This document shows positions 1-12,097 of a DNA stretch of 14,159 nt, in pieces. The translations under genes and the position numbers were made by a program. Below the pieces are notes generated by a model. That model ran no database searches. It saw only the letters and a program-made list of their open reading frames with translations, and had not been told where the DNA came from. Within the stretch, counting starts at the first letter, position 1; every line of letters starts with the position of its first letter. Source of the stretch: Muribaculaceae bacterium (GTDB lineage Bacteria; Bacteroidota; Bacteroidia; Bacteroidales; Muribaculaceae); assembly GCA_029062725.1 (NCBI GenBank), contig JAIDPP010000202.1, forward strand, positions 1-14,159, read 5' to 3'.

Positions 1-251
1 AATTTCGGATTGTCGGTATTAAGCCATTCCGGGAGATGTCCCCACGTAAGGAAATGAATTTTCCGGACCCAAGGCATATTTCTTTCTATCCCTCGGAAAA
101 CGAATTTCAAAGTATCCCATTCCCTGAAATAATGGGAAAGGTGTTTTTTATCTTCCTTGAATTGCGGAAGAAACCTGTCGCGCTCTTTCTTCCATGCAGG
201 ATCGGAGTCATCCACCCAGGGAATGACAATATCAATGGGTTCTTTTGTCAT
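1..251 (-). CDS. Stealth-family capsular sugar-phosphate transferase, N-terminal part (runs off left edge)
   Basis: Eighty-three codons are visible; the rest lies beyond base 1. Residues 6-20 read IDIVIPWVDDSDPAW, the conserved region 1 signature of Stealth proteins. Residues 40-82 (HYFREWDTLKF, then MPWVRKI, then GHLPEWLN) match the start of conserved region 2. Known members transfer a hexose-1-phosphate (for example GlcNAc-1-P) onto a growing glycan and so create phosphodiester linkages in bacterial capsules. The ATG at 251-249 overlaps the TGA of the upstream polymerase gene (ATGA), so translation is probably coupled. It is the last gene of the operon that can be seen. Family assignment rests on direct motif reading; donor and acceptor sugars cannot be told. 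Confidence 0.88.
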   Translation of the reverse strand, partial: MTKEPIDIVIPWVDDSDPAWKKERDRFLPQFKEDKKHLSHYFREWDTLKFVFRGIERNMPWVRKIHFLTWGHLPEWLNTDNPK

Positions 252-1495
252 ACGGTAACTTTTCTGTTTTTCACCACGTAAGGTAGGAGGAGAAAAAGAA
301 TGATGTCGAGATAAAACCTTGAAGTAGAGGCTAAATCTCCTTTATAGTGAGTAAAATAAGTATAGATCAGGATTATGAAGATAAAGAGTTTCTCGTTGAT
401 GCTTTTTGTGAGTTTATATGGTTTGATAAAAAATAAAAGGGTGAAGAGGTAACTCACAGCAGATCCTACTACACCCCAATACAGCAACTGGCGGAGATAA
501 CCGGCATCAACGCTTTTATAATACCCGGTTCCGCTCGGACTCATATAATATCCGGAGCCTATAAACCATTCCTGATCCGTAATAGTCACGTATTCATACA
601 TCTCATTGAGGGTATTGAACGAGTGACTACCTTCCGTGCTTCCCGACTCTGTATATTTGATAAATAAATCAAACACCCAGGGCAGGACATGATCCGTAAG
701 AAACATCAGTGTGTCGGGAGGCAAGATAATTACCACTATTCCGATCAGACCGACTGTAATTATAGTAAAGCGTGCAAGAAACCGAAACTTTCCTCCTATA
801 TTTGTTCGGCAGAATACCAGATACAAAAAGCCGAACCCCACCCCCACTAAAGAAGTGCGTCCGGCAAAGAATCCACAAATAATGATCAGGAACAGTTTTA
901 CATATTCTATAAAAGATGCTCTCCTTGCAAGAGATAGCCTCTTGAACTGGATAATTGTGACGAGTCCACAGGAAGCCGCAAATTCAAAATAAAGACGGCC
1001 TGAGACAGCGAGACCTCTAAACCCGTTATAAGAGGTTTCAGCCTTTTCAGCATCATGTGCAAATTGGAAGTGATGGACTATCTCAAGAATCTTAGGCGAC
1101 ACGAAAGCACCAATCGATATAATAGCCTGAACACAGAACACATCCACAATCAGAGCTTCTACAACATCCACGTCTAACTTGGCAGAATTGAGGGAGGAGG
1201 TCACCACCAATGTTATGATAATACCGATAAACACTGAGGCATAAGCGGTAGTTAAGGAAAAATCTTTCGCTCCTAACCAAATTGACCAAACAGCGCATAA
1301 TATGGTAATCCCGATAGACCCCCAGATCAGGAGATATGTGTAAGGAATTTTATACCATCTGAATATCAGGTTGGATTTTCCCTTGTATAATAATTTCCCA
1401 AGAGCCATAAACAGGGCAAGAAAGATGGAATTCAAAGGCCCTACTATAGGGAAGCAGAAGAACAGGAGAAATAAAACGAATGTATTATAGACCAC
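248..1495 (-). CDS. wzy: Wzy-type polysaccharide polymerase (O-antigen ligase/polymerase-like membrane protein)
   Basis: A 415-residue, very hydrophobic protein with about ten predicted membrane segments spread from residue 4 to the C-terminus, the usual size of Wzy polymerases. Features typical of the family are GRTSLVG at 212-218 at a membrane edge, a long polar loop at about 260-335 containing GSGYY (313-317), and DAGYLRQLLYWG (330-341). Wzy joins lipid-linked repeat units into polymer on the outer face of the inner membrane. The start is a GTG, 7 nt after the stop of the upstream glycosyltransferase; an in-frame TAA five codons upstream leaves no better start. Wzy primary sequences are poorly conserved, so the call rests on topology, loop motifs and its place between glycosyltransferases and a flippase-bearing operon. 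Confidence 0.82.
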   Translation of the reverse strand: MVYNTFVLFLLFFCFPIVGPLNSIFLALFMALGKLLYKGKSNLIFRWYKIPYTYLLIWGSIGITILCAVWSIWLGAKDFSLTTAYASVFIGIIITLVVTSSLNSAKLDVDVVEALIVDVFCVQAIISIGAFVSPKILEIVHHFQFAHDAEKAETSYNGFRGLAVSGRLYFEFAASCGLVTIIQFKRLSLARRASFIEYVKLFLIIICGFFAGRTSLVGVGFGFLYLVFCRTNIGGKFRFLARFTIITVGLIGIVVIILPPDTLMFLTDHVLPWVFDLFIKYTESGSTEGSHSFNTLNEMYEYVTITDQEWFIGSGYYMSPSGTGYYKSVDAGYLRQLLYWGVVGSAVSYLFTLLFFIKPYKLTKSINEKLFIFIILIYTYFTHYKGDLASTSRFYLDIILFLLLPYVVKNRKVTV

Positions 1496-1502
1496 CGTAT
1501 TT

Positions 1503-2513
1503 TCAGATTAAAGCCGGTATGATATCGGATTTGACATGTTTTAATGCCACTATCACGAACCTCCTCAGATTATAGGGATGATGCAGATAGTCTCCGGATA
1601 ACAGGAAACGTCCTAAGGAACGGAAGGAATAATCGTCAATTGAATAGTAGAGAACCCGGCGGATGCAATTCATTATAACGCTGCAATCCTCGCCTTTTTT
1701 GAGAAGCTTCTTCTCGGCGCGGTAGTTATCAGTGATGGTGGAGAAGGTTATTTTGTCAGGTAAGGGCGGGAGATTGTGAAGACTATAATAATAGTCTATC
1801 AATTCCCTTCTAACTCTGCGACCGGCCTCTACCTGAAGGTTTCCCTTCGCTTTGGATATCTGATTCTGTGATTCCCTATAGAGCAGCAGATATTTATCCA
1901 GATTGGTGATGTTACCGATCTTGAACAGATCGGCAGCCAATTTATAGTCCTGACTAACTTTATATGATTCGTCATATCTGATACCATAGCTCTTCAAGAC
2001 CTCCGATCTGACAATAAGCAGTGGATGGATAAAGGGAGAGGAGGTGTAGATATAAGATTCGATATCTTTATGGGAAGTGGGTCTAAAAATCGCATCTTTC
2101 TTTTTCTCTCCGTCCCAACTATGGGCCAGCGCGCTTGACGCAATCACATCCGGGTTTTCCTCCATGTATCTTACCTGAAATTCCAGTCTGTCAGGTAAAG
2201 AGAAATCATCGGCATCCATTCTGGCTATATATTTGCCGGTTGAGGCGTCAAGGCCGTTATTTAGCGATTTTGTAAGACCTGAATTGGTCTCATTCCGGAT
2301 AATCCTTATTCTTTTATCCTTTTCTGAATATGACTTCAAAAACACATTCAATTCCTTTGATTCCGGATTGTCATTCACAATAATGAATTCAAAATCCGTA
2401 AATGTCTGGTTGAGGATAGACTCAATACTGACTCCAATCCATTCCAACGGTTCCTTATAGACGCTCATCAGAATGGAAACGGACGGATTGTTGATTGTCA
2501 AACGGTCAGCCAT
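1503..2513 (-). CDS. Family 2 glycosyltransferase (GT-A fold)
   Basis: This 336-residue cytoplasmic enzyme would transfer one sugar from a nucleotide donor to the lipid-linked repeat unit. It begins with the GT2 strand-loop VSILMSVYKEP (12-22), followed by ESILNQTF (31-38) and VND (46-48) for nucleotide binding. The metal-binding DXD element is MDADD (99-103), followed by LPDRLEFQ, the usual GT2 arrangement. A conserved SQDYKL element near the middle is likely to lie in the acceptor half. The protein has no membrane segment and the length is normal for the family. It lies 46 nt after the GT8 gene and 7 nt before wzy, so it is inside the operon. Sugar specificity cannot be read from sequence. 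Confidence 0.92.
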   Translation of the reverse strand: MADRLTINNPSVSILMSVYKEPLEWIGVSIESILNQTFTDFEFIIVNDNPESKELNVFLKSYSEKDKRIRIIRNETNSGLTKSLNNGLDASTGKYIARMDADDFSLPDRLEFQVRYMEENPDVIASSALAHSWDGEKKKDAIFRPTSHKDIESYIYTSSPFIHPLLIVRSEVLKSYGIRYDESYKVSQDYKLAADLFKIGNITNLDKYLLLYRESQNQISKAKGNLQVEAGRRVRRELIDYYYSLHNLPPLPDKITFSTITDNYRAEKKLLKKGEDCSVIMNCIRRVLYYSIDDYSFRSLGRFLLSGDYLHHPYNLRRFVIVALKHVKSDIIPALI

Positions 2514-2559: not shown

Positions 2560-3471
2560 TCATCGGAATAGTTTTTGTTTAATAAAACTCAATATACGGA
2601 GCCAGCTGTAGGAAGGGCGGATTATCTTTCCCGAAACTTTCAGCTCCATTTCCGGATCATAAAAAATGGAATTACTGAATGCATTCCACCATTCTCTCCA
2701 GGCATAGGTGAAGGTATTCCATGGTTTCTGGCCTGCGTAATGGATTATGCAGTCGCGGGAGGCGATCCATTTTAGCTTGTTTTTGTATGAGGAATTGTCC
2801 GGGTGCAATAAGGAAGGCAGGTTGTATATTTCATAAAACTTCGGAGTGACGTTAAAGCCTATATCCATAAGCAAAATATTCCCCCTGCATGTAAGATTAA
2901 TAATGTCTTGGTCTTGGTATAGATATTTTTTCCCGGCTTCTTTCAAGAACTTCTCTTTATAGTTCTCGTCCCGCAGGCGTTTACAGTTTAAAACGATGAA
3001 CCCGGCGTTAATATAGGTCATGGGATCTATTCCGAGCGATTCAATATGTTTTCGTCCAGCCTTCGACCTTAACCCAAGCGCAGGCACACCCTCCACAAGA
3101 TAGTCGGAGATCCTATCCATAGGAATAAGGGATAAATCAATCTTAAAGATAATATCCACATCACTATATATGACGATATCAAATTGAGGCAACAACCAGG
3201 GAATCAACAATCTGGAATAAGTGGCCGTGGAAATATCCCGGACTTCGTAGCTATTGGAAAAAACATCTCCAATCTCGATAAATGAAATATTATGTCCGGG
3301 GAATCGCTCAACCTGTTTATCCAGCAATGCCTTGTCGTCATTACTCACGTCACGGCTTATCAACACATAAATGTCATATTTCGACACAGTCGCGTTGGCT
3401 AATAAAGAATAGATGCATACGCCTGTCTGCATCACAAAGTTATGCTCTGTCGAAAAGACTACAGGAATCAT
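2560..3471 (-). CDS. Family 8 glycosyltransferase (LgtC/general stress protein A-like)
   Basis: A 303-residue retaining glycosyltransferase. All GT8 landmarks are present in order: IPVVFSTEHNF at 2-12, STATYSRLLIP (81-91), the metal-binding DVD in IYSDVDIIF (104-106), INAGFIVLN (154-162), QDQDIIN (186-192) and HYAGQKPW (244-251). Known GT8 enzymes of this type use UDP-galactose or UDP-glucose to make alpha linkages; which one applies here is inference. There is no signal peptide, so it should act on the cytoplasmic face. It sits between the pyruvyl transferase (49 nt gap) and the second GT2 gene (46 nt gap). Confidence 0.93.
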   Translation of the reverse strand: MIPVVFSTEHNFVMQTGVCIYSLLANATVSKYDIYVLISRDVSNDDKALLDKQVERFPGHNISFIEIGDVFSNSYEVRDISTATYSRLLIPWLLPQFDIVIYSDVDIIFKIDLSLIPMDRISDYLVEGVPALGLRSKAGRKHIESLGIDPMTYINAGFIVLNCKRLRDENYKEKFLKEAGKKYLYQDQDIINLTCRGNILLMDIGFNVTPKFYEIYNLPSLLHPDNSSYKNKLKWIASRDCIIHYAGQKPWNTFTYAWREWWNAFSNSIFYDPEMELKVSGKIIRPSYSWLRILSFIKQKLFR

Positions 3472-3520: not shown

Positions 3521-4504
3521 TTACCCGGCGATGAATTTTTTACAGGATTCTTTCAGGGAATCGGCCAATCTAAGGTACGCAGAAGGATTGGGATATATCT
3601 TGTGACCGGAAACAGGGGTGGAATCATTTTTATACATGTAATGGATTTCCCCTGTTTTAAGGTTAACCTCAATACGGTTGAAGAGATCGGTGAGTCCCTT
3701 GAGTCTTGATTTATTTGAAGAATCCGAGAAAGAATCTATAAATATGACCGGAGTTCCTAATGCCAGACATGGCAGGGCGCAGTGAATCCTTGATGTGATC
3801 ACCAGCTTTGCTTTCGCATAACGGTGCAGAAGATCCTCGGCAATACGGAATCTTTCTGAATCAGGGATATCATTAGGAGGCAGCTGATGATGGGTGTAGA
3901 TCGCCTTCTTCCTGATCTCTTTAGGTATAATTCTATTGATCAAACGCTTTTTCCTGAAAAGGTCAATGAATTTACCCCTTAAGAGAGCCGACAGGAAACT
4001 GCGAGGAGACTTTAAGAGTGTTTCACCTTCCTCAATATTAAAAATTGGATCGACAATATATATGTCGTCGCCTCTCTCCTTGTCGGCAACTTTATATTTC
4101 AAATCCAAGGTTAGAGTCAGACACCCGGAATAAAATGCCGGGACTCCCTTGCTTTGTAATAATTCTGTAGTGAACAGATCTCTGCACCCGATAGGACCGT
4201 GTGTTTTTAAATACGTTATCCCTTCTTGGGTGAGCATCCTGGACTGTACGGAATGGTTGATATGGAAGGCAACGAAATGAGGATGGATATTCTTAGCGGG
4301 TATCCAATGCGAGGGAGTGTGGGTGAACCATCCATTCATGATGAGCTTGACCTCATCATCATCATAATCATCCAACCGCTCTCTGTTTAATAATTGATCG
4401 ACCTGCGGAAGATATTGCCGGGCCGCTAAACTCTGAATATAGTCGCCGATGTTTGTTCCTGTAGGTGTATCAGTATAGGTCAATAATCCGTATTTCATTT
4501 CCAT
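3521..4504 (-). CDS. Polysaccharide pyruvyl transferase
   Basis: A 327-residue member of the polysaccharide pyruvyl transferase family (CsaB/WcaK/EpsO type), which transfers the enolpyruvyl group of PEP to a sugar as a pyruvate ketal. Diagnostic parts are GTNIGDYIQSLAARQYL (16-32), IGCRDLFTTELLQSKG (105-120), SGCLTLTL (126-133) and the C-terminal half with TSRIHCALPCLALGTPVIF (238-256), in which His241 sits in the usual substrate-binding loop. The ATG at 4504 is followed by a second Met at residue 3; either may be used. The gene lies 37 nt after the flippase gene. A pyruvate group adds a negative charge to the repeat unit. The sugar modified is unknown. Confidence 0.92.
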   Translation of the reverse strand: MEMKYGLLTYTDTPTGTNIGDYIQSLAARQYLPQVDQLLNRERLDDYDDDEVKLIMNGWFTHTPSHWIPAKNIHPHFVAFHINHSVQSRMLTQEGITYLKTHGPIGCRDLFTTELLQSKGVPAFYSGCLTLTLDLKYKVADKERGDDIYIVDPIFNIEEGETLLKSPRSFLSALLRGKFIDLFRKKRLINRIIPKEIRKKAIYTHHQLPPNDIPDSERFRIAEDLLHRYAKAKLVITSRIHCALPCLALGTPVIFIDSFSDSSNKSRLKGLTDLFNRIEVNLKTGEIHYMYKNDSTPVSGHKIYPNPSAYLRLADSLKESCKKFIAG

Positions 4505-4541: not shown

Positions 4542-6077
4542 TCATTTCTTGAGTTTTCCGATAAGAGTATTCATAATGCTTCTTCGTTGTGCCGAGTTGA
4601 AACTTATAAGAAATGCGATCGGAAGCAGCAATATAAAAAAGCATATACCTCCGCCGATCAATCCACCAAACTGTGATGGGAAAATATAATATCTGAGTCC
4701 CCACATGATTGCAACACCGAACAATGTTATAAGGAATAGAGGAAGCAGAATGGTTTTAAGAACCCATCTGATTGATATGTTGCAGCATTTTTTCATATAA
4801 AATATCCTTACAGCCATACTAAAAAAGGCCACAAGCAGTTTTACCTGAAAAATTACTTGTGGAGGAAAACCAAGTTCAAAAAGGCAAAAAGAGATCAGAA
4901 TAGTGATAAGCAATGCACACCCCACTGCAATCTGATAATTCCTTATTCTGCCGGAAGCGCCTATAACCATCCAAAAGGGTCCTCCTGTAGAATCAACCCA
5001 TCCGCATATAATCATGTAAATGCAGAAAATACTTGTAAGTGGCGGAATTTCTTTCAGCCATATTGAGAGTATGGTGTCGATATTAAAAATAACAGGACAC
5101 CCGACAATAAAAACAAGCAGATAAGAGAGTTTAGTGCTTACCTGTAAAAGAGAAAGAAGAGACCGGCGTTCATCTGCCGTATATCTTTTTACAATCTGGG
5201 GCTGAAAGGCTTTCTGGAAGTTACCTACTAATTGAGTGAGGGAATTGGAAACCTGATTTGTTATTCCAAGAGCTGCATTTACAGTTACACCAAAGAACAT
5301 ATTCACAATAATACCTATCCCTTGATTTGAAGTCATGGCGGCGAAGACTCCAAAAGTGTTCCACCCTGAATAGGATGTCATTTCCTTTCTCAAAATTTGA
5401 TCTTTAGGTCTTCCTTTCGATAAGTACTGGGGAAAATTTTTTTTAGCGTATGCTATATAGGCCCACTGAATCAAGACCGTGACAGACAGAGTAAGAAATC
5501 CTAAGACCGTTAAGGCCGGATAATGTCTGAATACCAATACTAAAAAAACAATTCCAAGTCTTAAAAAGGATTCAATAATCCCTATGACAGCAATGAAGTT
5601 AAATTTTTCCTTTGCTATTATGATGGAATCGTAGGGCAGCCTATATAATTGAAGAATAAACGACACTACCGCGCATTGATACAGGAAATGTGTCTGCACC
5701 GTATATTCTCGTGGAATATCCAGCTTATGCGTCAGAAACCATAAACCAACAGTCTCAAAAATAATTAAAAGGATGGCTGATAATAGAAAATAAAGAAATA
5801 CGGAGGTTCTAAAAATCTCGCGTACCTTTTCTATATCTTTTTCTGCCAAGGCGACATTGAAAAATCGCTGGGTGGAAGCAGTGAGTGGAGATGATAGGAA
5901 AGACAGGGATCCAATTACTGTAAAGACCAGACTCCAAATTCCATAACGTGTAATTCCGAGGACTTCAAGGATTACCCTCGAGGTGTATAAGGCAATTAAC
6001 ATCGCCACGGCCATCCGAATGTAGAGAAAGACCGTATTTTTCGCGATTCGTTTATTAGAAGATACCTCAGGCATCAT
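4542..6077 (-). CDS. wzx: Wzx-type polysaccharide flippase (MOP/MATE-like exporter)
   Basis: A 511-residue integral membrane protein with about 12-14 hydrophobic segments, the normal size of Wzx. The N-terminal segment (roughly 9-75: IAKNTVFLYIRM, then YTSRVILEVLG, YGIWSLVF, and STQRFFNVALAE) is the classic opening of the polysaccharide biosynthesis transporter family. Wzx moves undecaprenyl-pyrophosphate-linked repeat units from the inner to the outer leaflet of the inner membrane, where Wzy polymerises them. Two Met codons open the frame (6077 and 6074). The gap to the upstream glycosyltransferase is 91 nt and holds a possible hairpin. The DNA is clearly AT-rich by eye, as is common for flippase genes of exchangeable glycan loci. 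Confidence 0.94.
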   Translation of the reverse strand: MMPEVSSNKRIAKNTVFLYIRMAVAMLIALYTSRVILEVLGITRYGIWSLVFTVIGSLSFLSSPLTASTQRFFNVALAEKDIEKVREIFRTSVFLYFLLSAILLIIFETVGLWFLTHKLDIPREYTVQTHFLYQCAVVSFILQLYRLPYDSIIIAKEKFNFIAVIGIIESFLRLGIVFLVLVFRHYPALTVLGFLTLSVTVLIQWAYIAYAKKNFPQYLSKGRPKDQILRKEMTSYSGWNTFGVFAAMTSNQGIGIIVNMFFGVTVNAALGITNQVSNSLTQLVGNFQKAFQPQIVKRYTADERRSLLSLLQVSTKLSYLLVFIVGCPVIFNIDTILSIWLKEIPPLTSIFCIYMIICGWVDSTGGPFWMVIGASGRIRNYQIAVGCALLITILISFCLFELGFPPQVIFQVKLLVAFFSMAVRIFYMKKCCNISIRWVLKTILLPLFLITLFGVAIMWGLRYYIFPSQFGGLIGGGICFFILLLPIAFLISFNSAQRRSIMNTLIGKLKK

Positions 6078-6143: not shown

Positions 6144-6172
6144 CTGAACCTTTCGGCTCCCGAGGGCTTCAG
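6144..6172 (-). other. Bulged hairpin overlapping the glycosyltransferase stop codon
   Basis: Read on the minus strand, CTGAAGCC at the 5' side pairs with GGTTCAG at the 3' side (one bulged G), and inside it TCGG pairs with CCGA around a GAG loop. The outer stem starts on the TGA stop of the upstream glycosyltransferase gene. No T-run follows directly (the next bases are AAACGGGG), so it is not a classic terminator. It could be an RNA stability or polarity element within the operon. The pairing is visible; the function is not. Confidence 0.35.
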
Positions 6173-6876
6173 ATAAGGTACCTCAGTAGGTTGCCCTTTG
6201 TCAGAATACTTTTGTGATAAACTTTCCCGGGTTTATCCTCAAACCACTTTATCACTTCCTCTCTCTTCGTATGTAATCCTTTGGCTACTTTAAACGCATC
6301 TCCGGATTTGCCCCCGTAGTGGTGGAGTATATGGTCGTGATGAGTCAGCCCCAGAAGATTGATACCTTCCGTTATCATCTGTGATTGCAGTTTAGTCACT
6401 CCCCACCACCATTGAAAAGCAGTATCTAAAAGATACCTGTCAAAAAGAGGTTTATCCACCAACCAGCAGTAGCCGTCACATCTGTCGGGGTTTTTACAGA
6501 AACCGTAGGAAATTCCGCCGTAGTTACCGTCCTCCTTTATATCCAGCAGATATTTCAGCCATTTCGGATCTTTTATCCTGACATCGGAATTCAACAGGAG
6601 ATAATACTTCACATCGGGTCCCGCTAACTTAGAAGCTTCGTTGTTACCCCCGGCAAACAGCAGGTTCTCATCCGATAGTCTTAGCTTATCGATATATCCT
6701 TTTTGCTGATACTCTTTTAATATTCGCTTTGTCTCCTCCTCAGAATTATTATCCCAAACCACAATCTCACAACGCTTCAAATCCTCCGGATCGGTCACAT
6801 TATGGAGGGTTTCAAGGGTCTCTTTAACGTATTGAGGGGCATTGTAGGTAAGAATTAAGATTCCTATATCTTTCAT
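6169..6876 (-). CDS. Family 2 glycosyltransferase (rhamnosyltransferase-like subgroup)
   Basis: A short (235-residue) GT2 enzyme. The N-terminus has DIGILILTYNAPQYV (3-17), WDNNS (41-45) for nucleotide binding, FAGGNNEA (74-81) and LLLNSDVRI (93-101), in which the NSD at 96-98 replaces the DXD. That set is typical of the WcaA/rhamnosyltransferase-like subgroup. The C-terminal part is short and carries unusual clusters: Cys127, Cys133 and Cys137, then His179, His180, His182, His185 and His186. No membrane segment is seen. The start ATG lies 126 nt after the epimerase gene, the widest gap in the operon. It ends 91 nt before the flippase gene. Donor sugar is unknown. Confidence 0.9.
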   Translation of the reverse strand: MKDIGILILTYNAPQYVKETLETLHNVTDPEDLKRCEIVVWDNNSEEETKRILKEYQQKGYIDKLRLSDENLLFAGGNNEASKLAGPDVKYYLLLNSDVRIKDPKWLKYLLDIKEDGNYGGISYGFCKNPDRCDGYCWLVDKPLFDRYLLDTAFQWWWGVTKLQSQMITEGINLLGLTHHDHILHHYGGKSGDAFKVAKGLHTKREEVIKWFEDKPGKVYHKSILTKGNLLRYLI

Positions 6877-7002: not shown

Positions 7003-8013
7003 CTACACGTTATAATACTCCTTGAACCATTCCACAGTGCGTTGGATGCCGTCGCGGAGAGGGGTTGAAGGAGCGAAGGATGTTGCTTTAGCCAGAGCCG
7101 ATGAATCAGCGTATGTCTGATAGACATCCCCGGGCTGCATGGGGAGGTAATTCTTGACAGCCTCTTTTCCCGTTGCTTTCTCGATACACTCTATATAATC
7201 CATCAGTCGTGTAGGAGTCTGGTTGCCTATGTTATAGATAGTCGCCGGTATTTCTTTTTCGGGGATTATGTCGATTATCCTCACAATCCCTTCTACGACG
7301 TCATCTATATAGGTGAAATCACGCAGCATGTCTCCATTATTGAATACATTGATCGGCCGGTTATGGAATATGGCGTCCATGAACAGGAATGGCGACATGT
7401 CGGGACGCCCCCACGGACCATAGACCGTAAAGAATCGAAGGCCGGTGGTCGGCAGCCTGTAAAGTTTGCTATAGACATTAGCCATCAGTTCGTTGCTCTT
7501 TTTAGTGGCGGCATAGATTGACACCTGATTGTCAACCCGGTCGGTTTCCTGAAAAGGTATTTTTGTATTCCCTCCATATACGGAAGATGAGGAGGCATAG
7601 ACAAGATGCCCCACATTGTTGAGTCGGGAGGCTTCCAGAATATTTAGGAAACCGATTATATTACTTTCTATATATGCGTAGGGATTCTCAATGGAATACC
7701 TGACACCTGCCTGAGCGGCGAGATTCACCACAACATCGAATTTCTCATTTTCAAAAAGTTTGTCTAATAGCGGTTTGTCGCATAAGTCAATGCGACAGAA
7801 ACGATAGTCCGGATATAGGGTGGATTGAACGGTATGCGCTTGAAATATTTTTGATTCAGGAATTCCGGTGGCCTCCAGGCGGGCATATTTCAGACTGACG
7901 GGATAATAGTCGTTGATGTTGTCAATCCCGAAAACTGAATATCCTTTAGCGCAAAGAGCTTTTACGAGATGGAAACCAATGAATCCGGCGGCGCCGGTTA
8001 CCAATATTTTCAT
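7003..8013 (-). CDS. NAD-dependent epimerase, UDP-glucuronate 4-epimerase-like
   Basis: A 336-residue extended short-chain dehydrogenase/reductase. The Rossmann motif GAAGFIG is at 7-13 and Asp31 (GIDNIND) would bind the NAD ribose. The catalytic set is SSSSVYG (141-147) with Tyr167 and Lys171 in YAATK. The stretches NLAAQAGVRYSIENP (97-111), FFTVYGPWGRPDM (194-206) and RDFTYIDDVVEGI are those of the UDP-glucuronate 4-epimerases (LpsL/CapI type), which interconvert UDP-glucuronate and UDP-galacturonate in the cytosol. The enzyme would supply a uronic acid for the repeat unit. It lies 30 nt after the UpxZ-like gene and is the first biosynthetic gene of the operon. UDP-galactose 4-epimerase or a related specificity is less likely but not excluded. 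Confidence 0.88.
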   Translation of the reverse strand: MKILVTGAAGFIGFHLVKALCAKGYSVFGIDNINDYYPVSLKYARLEATGIPESKIFQAHTVQSTLYPDYRFCRIDLCDKPLLDKLFENEKFDVVVNLAAQAGVRYSIENPYAYIESNIIGFLNILEASRLNNVGHLVYASSSSVYGGNTKIPFQETDRVDNQVSIYAATKKSNELMANVYSKLYRLPTTGLRFFTVYGPWGRPDMSPFLFMDAIFHNRPINVFNNGDMLRDFTYIDDVVEGIVRIIDIIPEKEIPATIYNIGNQTPTRLMDYIECIEKATGKEAVKNYLPMQPGDVYQTYADSSALAKATSFAPSTPLRDGIQRTVEWFKEYYNV

Positions 8014-8043: not shown

Positions 8044-8841
8044 TCAGATTGAGTAGGGATGCCGAAAGCTTTTGGCGAGGCGTGTTTGAGCGAGCCGCGT
8101 AAGGCGTTCGTAGTCGGTGAGAGGGATGTAGGGATACGCCGCGAAGAGCAGACGGAGGAGGGTTTTGGCATTAACGCCTGAACTCATGGCTTCAAGGGGA
8201 AGTGTTTCTACTAACCGCCGCTTGAAACTCTTCTGATCAGGATCAAAGTCGTAGAGGTCCGCTCGGAGGAGTATAGCGGCCTTTTCTGCTTCAATATCGC
8301 TCATGGAGCCGGGAGGAGGATTGACTGTTCCTCTTAATTTTTCTTGAGCTTCGCGATACCAGTCTTCAAGACGGTCGGAGTGCCAGCGGAAGGGTGCGCC
8401 AAGGAATTCTTTTCTGCGGCGTAGGATGGGACCGTCAAGGGCGCGGTGGAGAGTGAAGATATTGACGCCGGGGTCTCCTTTGATGCGCGCCTGAAAGGCA
8501 AGGAGAATAATCTGGTCTCCGCTGTCGGCGAGGGGAGGGGCATTGAATGCGATACGGTGGATGAAGTCACGTGACTCAAGGAGCTCGAGGGCATCGCCTG
8601 GAGTTAGGAGGATAAGATCCGGGAGTAGGCTGTCGAAGGTTTCTATCCATTCGTGTGCATCGCGGCGGAGGGATGCAAGCTCGGGGATGGCACCCCCGGC
8701 ATTGGCCCGAAGGCATAGGAGCATCGCCTTACGATAGGCTTCGGAGGCCGCTGATTTCAGAGCACAGCTCCGGGCAGGAAAAGCTTCGCTTCTCTTGATG
8801 GGCTTCTCTTGATGGGCGTAGAGAGCTTCGAACTTTCTCAT
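8044..8841 (-). CDS. UpxZ-like protein, probable antagonist of UpxY antitermination (divergent, long)
   Basis: I choose the ATG at 8841-8839, which overlaps the UpxY TGA (ATGA) and gives 265 residues; an ATG at 8892 would extend it by 17 residues inside upxY and is less likely. No catalytic motif, signal peptide or membrane segment is seen. The protein is rich in Leu, Ala and Arg and looks all-helical. In Bacteroides capsule loci the second gene after upxY encodes UpxZ, which blocks the UpxY proteins of other loci so that one capsule dominates. The opening MRKFEALYA and the helical stretch at about 35-85 are loosely reminiscent of UpxZ, but this protein is about 100 residues longer than the usual form (about 160). 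Function is therefore inferred mainly from position. Its second half (about 130-265) is unrecognised. Confidence 0.55.
   Translation of the reverse strand: MRKFEALYAHQEKPIKRSEAFPARSCALKSAASEAYRKAMLLCLRANAGGAIPELASLRRDAHEWIETFDSLLPDLILLTPGDALELLESRDFIHRIAFNAPPLADSGDQIILLAFQARIKGDPGVNIFTLHRALDGPILRRRKEFLGAPFRWHSDRLEDWYREAQEKLRGTVNPPPGSMSDIEAEKAAILLRADLYDFDPDQKSFKRRLVETLPLEAMSSGVNAKTLLRLLFAAYPYIPLTDYERLTRLAQTRLAKSFRHPYSI
8789..8816. repeat. Perfect 14-bp tandem duplication inside the UpxZ-like gene
   Basis: CTTCTCTTGATGGG occurs twice with no gap (8789-8802 and 8803-8816). It falls in codons about 9-18 of the UpxZ-like gene. Because 14 is not a multiple of three, loss or gain of one unit shifts the reading frame. 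Removing one unit by hand gives a stop (TAA) after 32 codons. Confidence 0.9.
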
Positions 8842-9362
8842 TCTATCGCTTCCAGAAGATCGGGATGTATATATGGGAGCATTACCATGCATATTCCTTC
8901 GATGCGGACGATGACGTGTCGATTTTTTCTCACTCTGGTTATGTTTCCTTCGTAGCCTTGGAAAGGGCCCCCGGTGATCCTGACCCGCTGGCCCTCCTTA
9001 TAATCTGTCTTGGTGAATATCTGGCAACGGGTCGTGTCGCCGGACGTTAGAAGACGGAGGAGGTCTATAGATTCCCGGGGGATGATTCGGATGGTGCGGT
9101 CATGCGGATACCGGTAAATCCAGAATGAGGGGTATTGCTCGGGATGCTCACGGCCGGCTTCCTCGAGAAGGAGGGCGTTTTCTTGAGTTGTTCGGATGAA
9201 CAGGACTCGTGGGATGACGGCCCGAACTCGTGTCTTGCGGTCTTTGGTTTTTACCTTTTCTTTAGGGAGGAACACCTCTTGGCAGTGTGTTGCGAGTATG
9301 GTTTCAGCGCGGAAGTCGTTACGGGTTTTTATTGCGAACCAATGGATTGAGTCTTTTGTCAT
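8838..9362 (-). CDS. upxY: UpxY-type transcription antiterminator (NusG paralogue)
   Basis: I prefer the ATG at 9362-9360, giving 174 residues that begin MTKDSIHWFAIKTRNDF, the usual opening of UpxY and of the NusG N-terminal domain. Met codons at 9404 and 9401 would add 14 or 13 residues with no NusG similarity. The NGN domain covers about 5-110. A C-terminal KOW domain (YKEGQRVRITGGPFQGYEG, 121-139) follows. UpxY proteins are locus-specific NusG/RfaH relatives that bind RNA polymerase in the operon's own 5' leader and prevent premature termination. As first gene of a minus-strand glycan operon behind an invertible segment, the context fits fully. It overlaps the UpxZ-like gene by ATGA, suggesting coupled translation. 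Confidence 0.92.
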   Translation of the reverse strand: MTKDSIHWFAIKTRNDFRAETILATHCQEVFLPKEKVKTKDRKTRVRAVIPRVLFIRTTQENALLLEEAGREHPEQYPSFWIYRYPHDRTIRIIPRESIDLLRLLTSGDTTRCQIFTKTDYKEGQRVRITGGPFQGYEGNITRVRKNRHVIVRIEGICMVMLPYIHPDLLEAIE

Positions 9363-9481
9363 GGGTATATGCAGTCTTTTGCAAGGCTTATGGCGATGCA
9401 TCATTCACAACCGTCCGTGTGCCCGAGCGGGGATCGGATCTCATGGAGGAGCCTATACAGGAGCTTTCCGTGTGGCTGCGG
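9363..9481 (-). promoter_or_regulatory. upxY 5' leader
   Basis: This is the stretch between upxY and the nearer inversion site, about 120 nt that any transcript from the invertible segment must cross. UpxY proteins are known to act in the leader of their own operon, so this is where a pause or antitermination site would be expected. I see only weak structure: a CCGA/TCGG pair around a 7-nt loop near 9425-9440 and two copies of CACACGGA on the minus strand. No clear terminator is visible. Plus-strand reading frames across it show no protein-like features. Confidence 0.5.
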
Positions 9482-9512
9482 AAAAAGTATCTCTTGGGAA
9501 GAGATACTTTTT
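9482..9512 (+). repeat. Left inversion site (near-palindrome, GGG centre)
   Basis: A perfect palindrome with 14-bp arms: AAAAAGTATCTCTT at 9482-9495, GGG at 9496-9498, and the complementary arm at 9499-9512. The site at 9668-9698 is its reverse complement at 30 of 31 positions. Seen as a recombinase site, it splits into 11-bp arms (AAAAGTATCTC and its complement) around a 7-bp spacer TTGGGAA. The only clear asymmetry is the GGG centre, which would set the polarity of the site. As RNA it would also fold into a hairpin with a trailing U-run. Confidence 0.85.
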
Positions 9513-9667
9513 ATTAGTCAACCAATTGGAAATCAACGGTTCCTGTAAAAGCAAAATCTATTAAATATGCAAATATGCCATAAAATATGTCAATTCCTCC
9601 TCAAATCCGCTAAAAATAACACCTAAATACTAAGCAATTCAGATATTTTTATTAAATTTGCACTTGG
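9513..9667. other. Predicted invertible promoter segment (phase-variation switch)
   Basis: A 155-bp, AT-rich segment enclosed by the two inverted near-palindromic sites. It contains no gene. Near its right end lies TAAATTTG (9653-9660), a match to the Bacteroides -7 element TAnnTTTG, pointing right. Bacteroides fragilis capsule loci are switched by inversion of just such a segment in front of upxY. In the orientation shown the element points away from upxY, so the operon is likely OFF; inversion would place it about 150 nt upstream of the upxY start and facing it. AAATATG occurs three times at 9563, 9571 and 9583 and might bind a protein. The geometry is seen directly; inversion itself is inferred. 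Confidence 0.8.
9653..9660 (+). promoter_or_regulatory. Promoter -7 element inside the invertible segment
   Basis: TAAATTTG matches TAnnTTTG exactly. No TTTG is present at the expected -33 distance, so it may be weaker or activator-dependent. Transcription would start about 7 nt downstream, at about 9667, which is the edge of the right inversion site. In the present orientation it reads toward the TPR gene; after inversion it would drive upxY. Confidence 0.6.
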
Positions 9668-9698
9668 AAAAAGTATCTCTTCCCAAGAGATACTTATT
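9668..9698 (-). repeat. Right inversion site (near-palindrome, CCC centre)
   Basis: AAAAAGTATCTCTT at 9668-9681, CCC at 9682-9684, then the second arm at 9685-9698 with one mismatch (A at 9696). Aligned to the reverse complement of the left site it matches 30 of 31 bases; aligned in the direct sense it matches only 27 of 31, since GGG faces CCC. The two copies are therefore best read as inverted repeats. Both are preceded by GG on the plus strand. Confidence 0.85.
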
Positions 9699-9910
9699 TT
9701 TTGCTTTTAAAGACGTTAAAGGGGATCATCCCTGCCAATGGAGATCGCTCCGCGGCGACCGGGATTTATATCATAAATTCGGGAAACCGGAGGTTTCCGC
9801 ACATCTCCAAAACAGGACGCGTCGGAGGCCATGATAATTTCGGCACATATCCAAAACGGTATAGACCACGGGATAGACACCTGCCGTGTATAGGCCGAAA
9901 AAAAGGAATT
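9699..9910. other. Gene-free stretch between the right inversion site and the TPR gene promoter
   Basis: About 210 bases with no gene I can support. An open frame continues upstream of the TPR gene through this stretch but has no in-frame ATG and ends in a TTG at 9701, so it is chance. Small structures visible are a 7-bp perfect hairpin (GGAAACC at 9782-9788, GGTTTCC at 9792-9798), a 15-bp direct repeat with one mismatch (GCACATCTCCAAAAC at 9799-9813 and 9843-9857), and a bulged inverted repeat at 9857-9871 and 9884-9897. No T-run follows either hairpin, so none is a clear terminator. Confidence 0.5.
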
Positions 9911-9941
9911 TTTGCTCAATGGAATTTTTTGAGTAAATTTG
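9911..9941 (+). promoter_or_regulatory. Bacteroides-type promoter of the TPR gene
   Basis: TTTG at 9911-9914, a 19-nt spacer, then TAAATTTG at 9934-9941. This is the consensus -33/-7 form. The expected start point, about 7 nt after the -7 element, falls at about 9947, on or next to the first ATG of the gene. Confidence 0.8.
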
Positions 9942-9946
9942 CAGGG

Positions 9947-12097
9947 ATGAATCCTACGAAGCTCTTATCCTATATTATATCCTTTGTCAAGGGGATGATT
10001 CCTGGGAGTTATTCCTTATTTATCCCTAATATAGCATTATTATTTATTTTCGTTCTGGCCGGAGGCTTTGCGGAAACGTCTCGGGCGCAGGTCAATGCGG
10101 AGCAGTGCGTCACGATCGGGAGGAATGTCCTTTCGATGGATGACTATATGCTATCGATCCAGTATTTCAATCAAGCGATCAAGGCGAAGCCCTATCTCTC
10201 TGACCCTTATTTCTTCCGTGGCCTTGCCAAGCTCTATCTTGAGGATTACAAGGGGGCGGAGGAGGACTGCTCCCTTGCTATCGAGAGGAACAAATATAAG
10301 ACGGAGAGTTATAAGGTCAGGGGATTCGCACGCCAGTATTTGGGTAAGGATTCGTTGGCCGTAGAGGATTATAAAATCGGGCTTCAGGAGAATCCCGATG
10401 ACAAGTATTTCCTATTCTATAAAGGAGTGGCTGAGACGGAACTGCGACGTTTCTCCGACGCCGATTCGACTTTCCGGCATCTCCTGCGTCTTTATCCCCG
10501 ATTTGACGATGGCATAACGGCACGGGCGCGTCTGAGGATGGTTGAGGGTGATACGGTCCGCGCTCTTGAAGATCTTGACGCCTCCATACTCCTCGCTCCG
10601 ACGGGTGTGAACCCTTATCTGATGCGTGCCGAGCTTCTATCGCATAAGAAGGAATGGAGCGCGGCGGCCGCAGATATGGATGAGGCCATCCGCCTTCAGC
10701 CCCAGGAACCTGACTATTATCTCAATCGTGCATATCTGAGGTATAACAATGATGATTATTTCGGCGCCATGGCCGACTATAATTATTCTCTTGAACTCAG
10801 ACCATATAATGCCGCTGCCCTCTTCAACCGTGCCTTGTTGCGATATGAGGTGAGGGATTTCAGCCGGGCTGTGAAGGATCTGGATGAGGTTCTTAAGATC
10901 GAGCCTGACAATTTCCACGCCCGCTATAACCGCGCATTGATGCTCCTTGAATTAGGTGAATATAAGGAGGCGTTGAAGGGCTTTGACGCTATAGCTAAAA
11001 AATATCCCAGGTTTTATCCGGCCTATTACGCGATGGCGGAATGTCTGCATCAACTCGGCGACATGCGCGGTGCGATGACCAATGTTCATCATGCCGAGGA
11101 ATTGATCAAGAAATATGTGAAGAATCCGGGTAAGTTTCAACTTGACCGGCCGACTATCGCTTCCGGGACCACCAATACCAAAGGCTTGGAGGAGGAACCG
11201 GATCCGCGCGATGGTGACGATAGAGAGGGAGAGACTGATATACGGGTGATGGAACGGTTCAACCAACTGGTGACAGTTTCTCCCTCCTCTACGGCACAGC
11301 TGTCGTATAATGAAAGGATAAAGGGGCGGGTGCAGGACCGGGATATGGCTGTGGAGCCCGAGCCTGACTATATGCTTTCTTTCTATGCCCCCCGGCAATC
11401 GCTCAAGATTACATCGAATTATTTCCGGGAGTTGGATGATTTCAATCAGGGAGGATATGTGGAGGAGAAGATTAACTTAGCACCGGCTTATTCGCACCTG
11501 TCGGGAGTTGGGGGCGCGGGTGAAGAGAATGCTTCTCAATGGGAGCGTATATTCAGCAGGATAGAATATTATGAAGGGATTGCAGCCGAGGGAGCGGCGC
11601 GTCCGGCGGATTATCTTGCCCTGGGGATTGCGCGGAGCATGGTGAAAAACTACGGAGAGGCAATACGGGCGCTTGACAAGGCTCTGGAGAAAGATCCGCG
11701 TTTCACAGTAGCCTTGATGGCGCGAGCTTACGCCCGTCAGGCGGAGAGCGCGATGCGGGAGGCCGAGGAAGGAGATTCTCAACTCCGGCGGCTGGAAGCC
11801 ACGCGAGACATCGCCGCGGCGATTGCGGATTATGACGCTGCATTGGAGCTGAATCCGAGATTGGTTTACGCGTGGTTCAACAAAGGGAATATCTATTACA
11901 GGATGCGTGATTTCACATCGGCGATGCAATGCTACAGCGAGGCCCTTCGTCTCGACCCTGAATTCGGTGAGGCTTACTTCAATCGTGGCATCTGCTATTT
12001 CCAGATGGGAAATAAGCGGCAGGCCTTCATCGATCTCTCAAAAGCAGGCGAGGCGGGGGTGGTCCAAAGCTACAATATCCTCAAGAGGATGAAATAA
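9947..12097 (+). CDS. Secreted tetratricopeptide-repeat protein
   Basis: 716 residues from the ATG at 9947. A long signal sequence (hydrophobic core about 23-40, IPNIALLFIFVLAGGF) ends near SRA-Q at 45-48; there is no lipobox, so the protein is likely periplasmic or surface-exposed. Two TPR blocks follow: about 50-400, with many 34-residue repeats of the form A...Y..A..D...A..L.P, and about 540-710, including YAWFNKGNIYYRM and EAYFNRGICYFQMGN. A charged, low-complexity linker (LEEEPDPRDGDDREGETD) separates them. TPR arrays bind other proteins; no enzyme domain is present, so the partner is unknown. The promoter start point lies at the first ATG, so either the mRNA is leaderless or translation starts at the second Met (9995), which leaves a 32-residue signal sequence. 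It is transcribed away from the capsule operon and toward thrS. Confidence 0.88.
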   Translation: MNPTKLLSYIISFVKGMIPGSYSLFIPNIALLFIFVLAGGFAETSRAQVNAEQCVTIGRNVLSMDDYMLSIQYFNQAIKAKPYLSDPYFFRGLAKLYLEDYKGAEEDCSLAIERNKYKTESYKVRGFARQYLGKDSLAVEDYKIGLQENPDDKYFLFYKGVAETELRRFSDADSTFRHLLRLYPRFDDGITARARLRMVEGDTVRALEDLDASILLAPTGVNPYLMRAELLSHKKEWSAAAADMDEAIRLQPQEPDYYLNRAYLRYNNDDYFGAMADYNYSLELRPYNAAALFNRALLRYEVRDFSRAVKDLDEVLKIEPDNFHARYNRALMLLELGEYKEALKGFDAIAKKYPRFYPAYYAMAECLHQLGDMRGAMTNVHHAEELIKKYVKNPGKFQLDRPTIASGTTNTKGLEEEPDPRDGDDREGETDIRVMERFNQLVTVSPSSTAQLSYNERIKGRVQDRDMAVEPEPDYMLSFYAPRQSLKITSNYFRELDDFNQGGYVEEKINLAPAYSHLSGVGGAGEENASQWERIFSRIEYYEGIAAEGAARPADYLALGIARSMVKNYGEAIRALDKALEKDPRFTVALMARAYARQAESAMREAEEGDSQLRRLEATRDIAAAIADYDAALELNPRLVYAWFNKGNIYYRMRDFTSAMQCYSEALRLDPEFGEAYFNRGICYFQMGNKRQAFIDLSKAGEAGVVQSYNILKRMK

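Follow-up and report, generated by a model that had tools for sequence, protein, structure and literature searches.

Is the AT-rich, gene-free interval in front of a capsule operon in a Muribaculaceae genome an invertible promoter, and if it is, which enzyme would turn it around and what would its transcript meet before reaching the capsule genes? Muribaculaceae are abundant in the mouse gut. We examined a 14,159-nucleotide stretch (here called the window) of a Muribaculaceae bacterium (NCBI GenBank assembly GCA_029062725.1, contig JAIDPP010000202.1), in which a first-pass annotation had read a phase-variable promoter inverton. The assembly comprises 1.83 Mb in 441 contigs and is 79.6% complete (∼20% of the genome is missing). 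Judged by sequence comparison, the locus is very probably a capsule promoter inverted by a tyrosine recombinase, set in front of an upxY-headed operon with a structured leader RNA.

Sites, promoter, and operon in the window

Two 31-bp repeats match each other at 30 of 31 positions in inverted orientation with 155 bp between them, exactly where the first-pass annotation had placed them (Table 1). Both are near-palindromic, with ATCTC/GAGAT arms around a 7-bp spacer (TTGGGAA on the left and TTCCCAA on the right); the left repeat has the composition AAAAAGTATCTCTT-GGG-AAGAGATACTTTTT. As each repeat is itself a near-palindrome, the pair is inverted mainly through its center (GGG versus CCC). The single-site pattern AGTATCTCTTNNNAAGAGATACT, allowing up to three mismatches, matched the window at the two repeats only (0.00 matches expected from 200 dinucleotide shuffles) and had no match elsewhere in the 1.83-Mb assembly, where the reversed control pattern matched one other place. 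The enclosed segment is AT-rich, as had been claimed: its GC content is 28% (9512-9666) versus 40 to 52% in windows lying fully on either flank.

The segment does contain the Bacteroides −7 element attributed to it, TAAATTTG, though the element is directed away from upxY. The assembled promoter is directed toward the gene for a TPR-repeat protein, so the capsule operon is predicted to be OFF; by arithmetic, inversion would move the element to 9520-9527 on the minus strand. We found no convincing candidate for a −33 element in the window. The TPR gene is preceded by a separate, fixed −7 element (9934-9941).

The claim that the segment lies next to upxY also held. The upxY product scored 91.2 bits against NF033644, just below the curated cutoff of 100, and the point at which the family match begins makes an internal ATG at 9362 the likelier start. 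The product of the second gene of the operon matched no Pfam family, with two weak, chance-like matches (E values of 0.027 and 0.087); its counterparts lie at L152:4705-5535 (−) and L103:5483-6085 (+). This gene occupies the position of upxZ in Bacteroides fragilis and could be the upxZ counterpart. The window has the layout of invertible capsule promoters in Bacteroidales: inverted repeats enclose a promoter, and upxY and polysaccharide genes lie downstream of the switch.

Table 1. Features of the window, with positions counted from its first nucleotide
Feature	Position	Strand	Remarks
Hydrophobic protein	248..1495	−	No family match of weight; possible polysaccharide polymerase
Family 2 glycosyltransferase	1503..2513	−	
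Family 8 glycosyltransferase	2560..3471	−	
Polysaccharide pyruvyl transferase	3521..4504	−	
O-unit flippase-like membrane protein	4542..6077	−	Weak: 29.6 bits vs cutoff of 300
Family 2 glycosyltransferase	6169..6876	−	
NAD-dependent sugar epimerase/dehydratase	7003..8013	−	
Second operon gene	8044..8892	−	Behind upxY; 33-34% identity in L152, L103
upxY-family antiterminator gene	8838..9404	−	NCBIfam NF033644, E 6.6e-26
Conserved structured leader RNA (candidate)	9406..9479	−	∼70-nt three-way junction, 15 pairs
Left inverted repeat	9482..9512	+	Core site 9489-9505, ATCTC-TTGGGAA-GAGAT; spacer 9494-9500
Invertible promoter segment (predicted)	9513..9667	.	155 bp between repeats
−7 promoter element TAAATTTG	9653..9660	+	Directed away from upxY; predicted OFF as assembled
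Right inverted repeat	9668..9698	+	Core site 9675-9691, ATCTC-TTCCCAA-GAGAT; spacer 9680-9686
TPR-repeat protein gene	9947..12097	+	Other flank of the switch; ATG at 9947 is the chosen start

A family of paired sites with reverse-complementary spacers

Across the 61 genomes searched (the own genome and 60 relatives), the site was matched in 21 and the reversed control pattern in 4, and several of these genomes had paired sites with reverse-complementary centers. The two-site pattern was found in at least 119 stretches of GTDB genomes. When neighboring site pairs were compared (n = 123; the listed GTDB stretches and the window), the centers were inverted in 121 and direct in only 2, one of which involves a third site in L073 and the other a Bacillus record (L145). 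With the rule relaxed to ATCTC-N7-GAGAT and duplicates discarded, there were 135 distinct pairs among the matches listed, and in 134 of these the 7-bp spacers were exact reverse complements of each other. The lone exception was the Bacillus record, in which the sites are direct.

The promoter follows an equally regular pattern. We scored outward-facing matches to a strict TANNTTTG lying a fixed distance within a site. Among the matches listed, 110 of 121 pairs had such an element at one end only, none had it at both ends, and 11 had it at neither; for a wider set of 134 pairs, also among the matches listed, the corresponding counts were 121, 1, and 12. A TTTGC motif, often in the form TTTGCTAAACA, lies 7 to 8 bases outside the core site at 25 of 238 site ends and ∼78 bases inside it at 17 ends, with examples in L130, L138, and L143 and at 9692-9710 of the window.

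Sites of this family occur widely across Bacteroidales, among others in Phocaeicola vulgatus ATCC 8482, and the exact two-site pattern had no match in any IMG/VR contig. The same site pairs also occur in records titled Clostridium, Clostridia, Roseburia, and Pseudoflavonifractor (L058, L068, L095, L108, L110, and L121), which may reflect either mislabeled assemblies or transfer. Two loci (L073:7101-7396 and L211) carry three site copies instead of two and could in principle undergo multiple inversions or a deletion. We considered whether the spacer could be an address that separates loci within one genome and rejected the idea, as several genomes reuse one spacer: the Phocaeicola massiliensis and Phocaeicola faecalis pairs examined all have ACT/AGT, and reuse is also seen in G013, G102, and G032. 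The two Phocaeicola species have many similar invertons with the shared spacer (L028, L029, L031, L062, L064, L074, L075, and L088, and further L092, L097, L101, L106, L107, L112, and L139).

The first genes beside invertons were called mechanically (142 genes), and 118 of them were retained after 24 very long, short, or doubtful calls had been dropped by hand. At an E value of 1e-5 or better, 28 of the 118 match UpxY and 23 match AraC-type regulators. Judged from these family matches, the targets of the switch family extend beyond capsules.

A tyrosine recombinase linked to the sites

Tyrosine recombinases bind arms that flank a 6- to 8-bp spacer, which must match that of the partner site, whereas serine invertases use a 2-bp spacer. 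The sites described here are of the former type, with the arms around a spacer of this length identical between inverted partners in 134 of 135 pairs. The own assembly encodes five tyrosine recombinases (PF00589). With these five as queries, we looked for recombinases linked to invertons, a search that enzymes unlike them escape. All recombinases found in this way within 1.5 kb of an inverton had their best match in the product of a gene on contig C72 (own assembly) and none in the other four. The 3′ end of the recombinase gene faced the inverton in 26 of 27 cases (two gene pieces in L122 counted once); in these 26, the promoter pointed toward the recombinase in 19 and the other way in 6, with 1 unclear. 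The C72 gene (L147:151-1353) encodes 400 amino acids with SAM-like and integrase domains, the arm-binding domain falling below the cutoff.

As a control for circularity, 30 loci were chosen by recombinase protein similarity alone. The contig ended less than 350 bp downstream in 6 of them (C72 included) and less than 350 bp upstream in 4. A palindrome-arm pair was found de novo downstream in 15 of the 24 loci with at least 350 bp of downstream sequence, 14 times with ATCTC arms, compared with none in the 26 upstream regions or in 480 Markov shuffles; the other 9 loci had no pair downstream. A loose search for 21-base inverted repeats behind recombinases had mostly failed because the outer arms differ, and it was superseded by the spacer-based search. 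Co-occurrence within the genus is weak: a recombinase match was present in 24 of 25 genomes with an exact pair versus 88 of 111 overall. Physical linkage and the protein-only test are therefore better evidence than genus-wide co-occurrence for a tie between recombinase and site.

The window inverton has no adjacent recombinase. Contig C72 carries an open gene for a recombinase of the linked kind; the contig stops 150 bp behind the gene, and its tail (L147:1-153) contains one site, CAATCTC-TCTCCGT-GAGATTG, differing from the window sites in spacer and outer arms. This single palindromic site suggests that a second, unassembled inverton probably lies at the contig break. With such an enzyme in the genome and the site linkage seen in relatives, the C72 enzyme is most likely the recombinase of the window inverton, acting in trans. 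In a protein catalogue, the 8044-8892 product and the C72 recombinase each occur on two contigs (the longest being 14,266 and 10,528 bp); these exceed the contigs of the own assembly, and hence another assembly with both proteins exists.

It is unlikely that the segment is flipped by a different enzyme, be it a serine invertase or any of the four remaining tyrosine recombinases. The incompleteness of the assembly would leave room for one, and the serine recombinase Mpi is reported to invert seven polysaccharide promoters in B. fragilis (PMC4747536). Against this, the 79.6%-complete assembly had 0 matches to the serine recombinase family PF00239, the 7-bp spacer rule suits tyrosine enzymes, and none of the linked recombinases is closest to the other four. 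We also rejected an Mpi repeat as such: the published motif ARACGTTCGT is absent from the inverton, and one match with a single mismatch lies outside it, at 8102 (1.17 expected by chance). The first-pass annotation was thus right that the site is not the Mpi core. Its further suggestion of a different recombinase family stands insofar as the linked enzymes are tyrosine recombinases and so unlike Mpi; they are not a new kind of enzyme, since a tyrosine recombinase, Tsr19, is already reported to invert Bacteroides promoters (PMC4747536).

A structured leader RNA between the switch and upxY

A structured element occupies the 5′ leader before upxY (Table 1). Searching the 111 genomes of the genus with a 100-base query from this leader, we obtained 11 matches, spread over 9 genomes; one match was without upxY, its contig ending just behind the match. 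We aligned ten leaders, one per genome from this query, with two further copies in G032 dropped and G009 added via its upxY. All ten fold as a three-way junction, and 3 of the 15 pairs show changes on both sides. The covariation score of the ten leaders was above all 500 shuffles, while 31 of 500 shuffles did as well in both-sided pair changes and 341 of 500 in pair types. A covariance model run over 297 genomes of the family gave 25 hits in 23 genomes from 12 genera. All 20 hits with at least 38 bits (19 genomes and 9 genera; 5 of the 20 had been used to build the model) were located before a same-strand upxY, and none of the 5 weaker hits (21 to 23 bits) was.

We then aligned 26 strong loci, comprising the 10 that built the model and 16 that did not, one of the latter (L238) having been fetched via upxY. 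In this set, 98.4% of cells pair, both-sided changes affect 7 of 15 pairs and three of the four helices, and 0 of 500 shuffles reach either the both-sided pair count or the covariation score. RNAalifold, run on an alignment that the model had already shaped, predicted these same 15 pairs. Loop lengths differ by numbers not divisible by three, a point against a coding function. No Rfam family matched the window at its gathering score, and a permissive search of 9300-9720 gave four matches with E values of 0.19 to 0.96, far below gathering scores.

The distance from switch to RNA is regular. Of the 26 strong loci, 9 have a detected N7 site pair, with the nearer core site ending 38 to 42 nt before the RNA in eight loci and 9 nt before it in the window, and 3 more have a related inverted repeat. 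Among the remaining 14, a −7 element lies 72 to 81 nt upstream in 6, with no repeat detected. Outside the family, two models (R1 and R2) gave three order-level matches each at 23.5 to 26.8 bits, in five places altogether, under stricter filters that weak members can escape; tblastn found no adjacent upxY at the five places. When R2 was run on 29 loci, chiefly distant upxY genes and other invertons, the best score was 29.6 bits at L240, before upxY, and all others were at most 21.5.

Conservation of the leader at the DNA level only, for example, as a protein-binding site or a recombination enhancer, would be compatible with its position beside the switch and with its many invariant columns, which include the whole CCU/AGG hairpin stem in 26 of 26 loci. 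We consider it an improbable explanation for the rest of the pattern: three helices change on both sides, sliding the partners along the same 26 loci lowered pairing to 25 to 52%, and the element also precedes upxY genes that have no detected inverton. Positions 9406-9479 are therefore best described as a candidate new UpxY-leader RNA. We lean slightly toward the view that this family-specific three-way junction, downstream of an invertible or, elsewhere, an apparently fixed promoter, is a recruitment signal for UpxY in Muribaculaceae and an undescribed second layer of the switch. We know of no earlier defined cis-signal for the UpxY antiterminator, and the leader RNA would be the first. In literature searches on UpxY leaders and RNA structure, no title or abstract among the leading matches describes such an element.

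Orientation of the segment at related loci

The first-pass annotation had proposed searching related genomes for the reversed segment. We searched 111 genus genomes for the window upxY and took as orthologues genes with at least 55% identity and 1,100 bp of upstream sequence; G070 and a second G032 contig, with less than 350 bp upstream, were set aside. An inverton lies upstream of 7 of the 8 orthologous upxY loci; G062 has none within the 1,100 bp examined. The promoter faces upxY (ON) in G031, G077, and G030 and faces away from it (OFF) in the window, G032, G021, and G009. Across orthologous loci of different species, the segment is thus found both ways around at the same locus. The spacers differ between these loci, yet the two partners within each pair are exactly reverse complementary. 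More distant upxY genes had no inverton of the window's type within 1,100 bp (0 of 16). These 16 include a second upxY-like gene in the own genome (C247:5046-5558, locus L250), which is 42% identical to the window's upxY.

The segments themselves are homologous. With matched promoter polarity, segment 9513-9667 scored above all 500 mononucleotide shuffles against the segments of L056 (38 versus a shuffle maximum of 30) and L103 (45 versus 34). With opposite polarity, the scores were reached by 74 and 18 of 500 such shuffles, respectively. Because the segments of L056 (G031) and L103 (G030) match at equal polarity, their orientation relative to upxY is opposite to that in the window. When all segments were compared with one another, 9 of 254 homologous pairs were reversed, both flanks being conserved in 3 of these; the pairs are not independent. 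The best reversed pair was L138/L143 (flank pieces 81 to 88% and segment 89.7% identical over 184 bp); the window and L103 are reversed with one flank conserved. Phocaeicola accounts for 233 of the 245 same-way pairs and has none reversed, compared with 9 of 21 reversed outside this genus (again, nonindependent pairs). Finally, taking one locus with a site pair per genome (34 in the genus), we found a contig end no more than 400 bp away in 8, versus 1.36 expected (P = 9e-5 by a Poisson test). This excess fits assembly breaks where both orientations coexist; repeated sites can break assemblies too.

Could the segment be a relic, formerly invertible and now frozen in an orientation kept by descent? 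A single orientation was assembled, the recombinase is not adjacent, and the polysaccharide promoter described in PMC13114119 is reported to be largely ON beside a broken invertase. We nevertheless regard a relic as quite improbable. Spacers that differ between orthologous loci and still match exactly within each pair argue for continuing exchange or selection, and the genome has a linked-type recombinase gene with an open reading frame. That the palindromes are merely RNA hairpins or terminators beside a fixed promoter is very hard to credit: the left repeat does fold as a 14-bp hairpin (−13.8 kcal/mol; z = −7.2) with a T run at its end, but a hairpin needs no match between copies, whereas the spacers are inverted-identical in 134 of 135 pairs and reversed homologous segments exist. 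The comparisons strongly support the original reading of a phase-variable promoter inverton, given the inverted spacers, the single outward promoter, and the occurrence of both orientations.

Proposed mechanism

We propose that a tyrosine recombinase, most likely that of C72 in trans, would bind the palindromic ATCTC/GAGAT arms at both sites and exchange strands across the 7-bp spacer. Comparison among genomes backs both the site family and the spacer rule on which these steps depend, and the particular recombinase is our inference. As the two spacers are reverse complementary, recombination would flip the segment. In the assembled orientation, transcription would proceed toward the TPR gene, with the capsule operon OFF; the genome comparisons also back the promoter polarity and the occurrence of both orientations at orthologous loci.

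After a flip, the transcript would start near the left repeat, at ∼9512-9514 on the minus strand, and pass through the left-repeat hairpin and the 9406-9479 RNA before reaching upxY. We place the putative start by analogy with Bacteroides intestinalis, in which transcripts from promoters of this kind are reported, from RNA sequencing, to begin within the proximal repeat (PMC8375218). In B. fragilis, more repeats between promoter and genes are reported to go with less transcription (PMC4747536). The UpxY antiterminator would then recognize the 9406-9479 RNA, and the polymerase would continue into the capsule genes. The reported action of UpxY is to keep transcription from terminating within the 5′ leader that precedes upxY (PMC7819879). 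The fold of the RNA draws on the comparison of leaders, and its recognition by UpxY is the presumed step.

Relation to known systems and implications

Promoter inversion upstream of upxY has been reported before, as have tyrosine enzymes that invert both nearby and remote promoters (PMC4747536, PMC13114119, PMC8748976, PMC12632263, and PMC3090145), and the window inverton belongs to this known kind of switch. The Mpi-controlled capsule promoters of B. fragilis are similar in that a short promoter lies between inverted repeats before upxY-headed operons and is switched ON or OFF (PMC4747536 and PMC3090145). They differ in that Mpi is a serine recombinase (PMC4747536) with the motif ARACGTTCGTN (quoted in PMC8375218), whereas the window inverton lacks the motif, the assembly has no PF00239 match, and the sites fit a tyrosine enzyme. 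Closer to our proposal is Tsr19 (BF2766) of B. fragilis, a single tyrosine recombinase reported to flip a promoter beside its own gene and a distant one (PMC4747536); we propose Tsr19-like local and distant flipping for C72 and the window. A polysaccharide promoter of P. vulgatus is likewise invertible before upxY, with a site-specific recombinase upstream and inversion seen by PCR, but its local recombinase is described as broken (PMC13114119).

For the RNA, the nearest parallel is LoaP, a NusG paralog reported to recognize a folded 5′-leader RNA, the dfn leader hairpin, and to promote read-through (PMC12691694). That element is a small UNCG hairpin in Bacillus (PMC12691694), whereas the window has a three-way junction for which we propose recognition by UpxY.

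Repeat motifs of Bacteroidota have been reported in PMC11892184. Searching literature text for the letters of the site returned nothing relevant, letters in figures being outside such searches. The leading matches of literature searches on Muribaculaceae with invertons, phase variation, or capsules did not name the family.

The locus yields a sequence rule for finding switches of this kind (ATCTC/GAGAT arms with reverse-complementary 7-bp spacers), as well as a candidate enzyme and a definite prediction of the ON and OFF states. Having a defined RNA as candidate target makes the question of UpxY antitermination directly testable. If the proposed role of the leader is true, capsule expression would require both the correct DNA orientation and UpxY reading the leader RNA.
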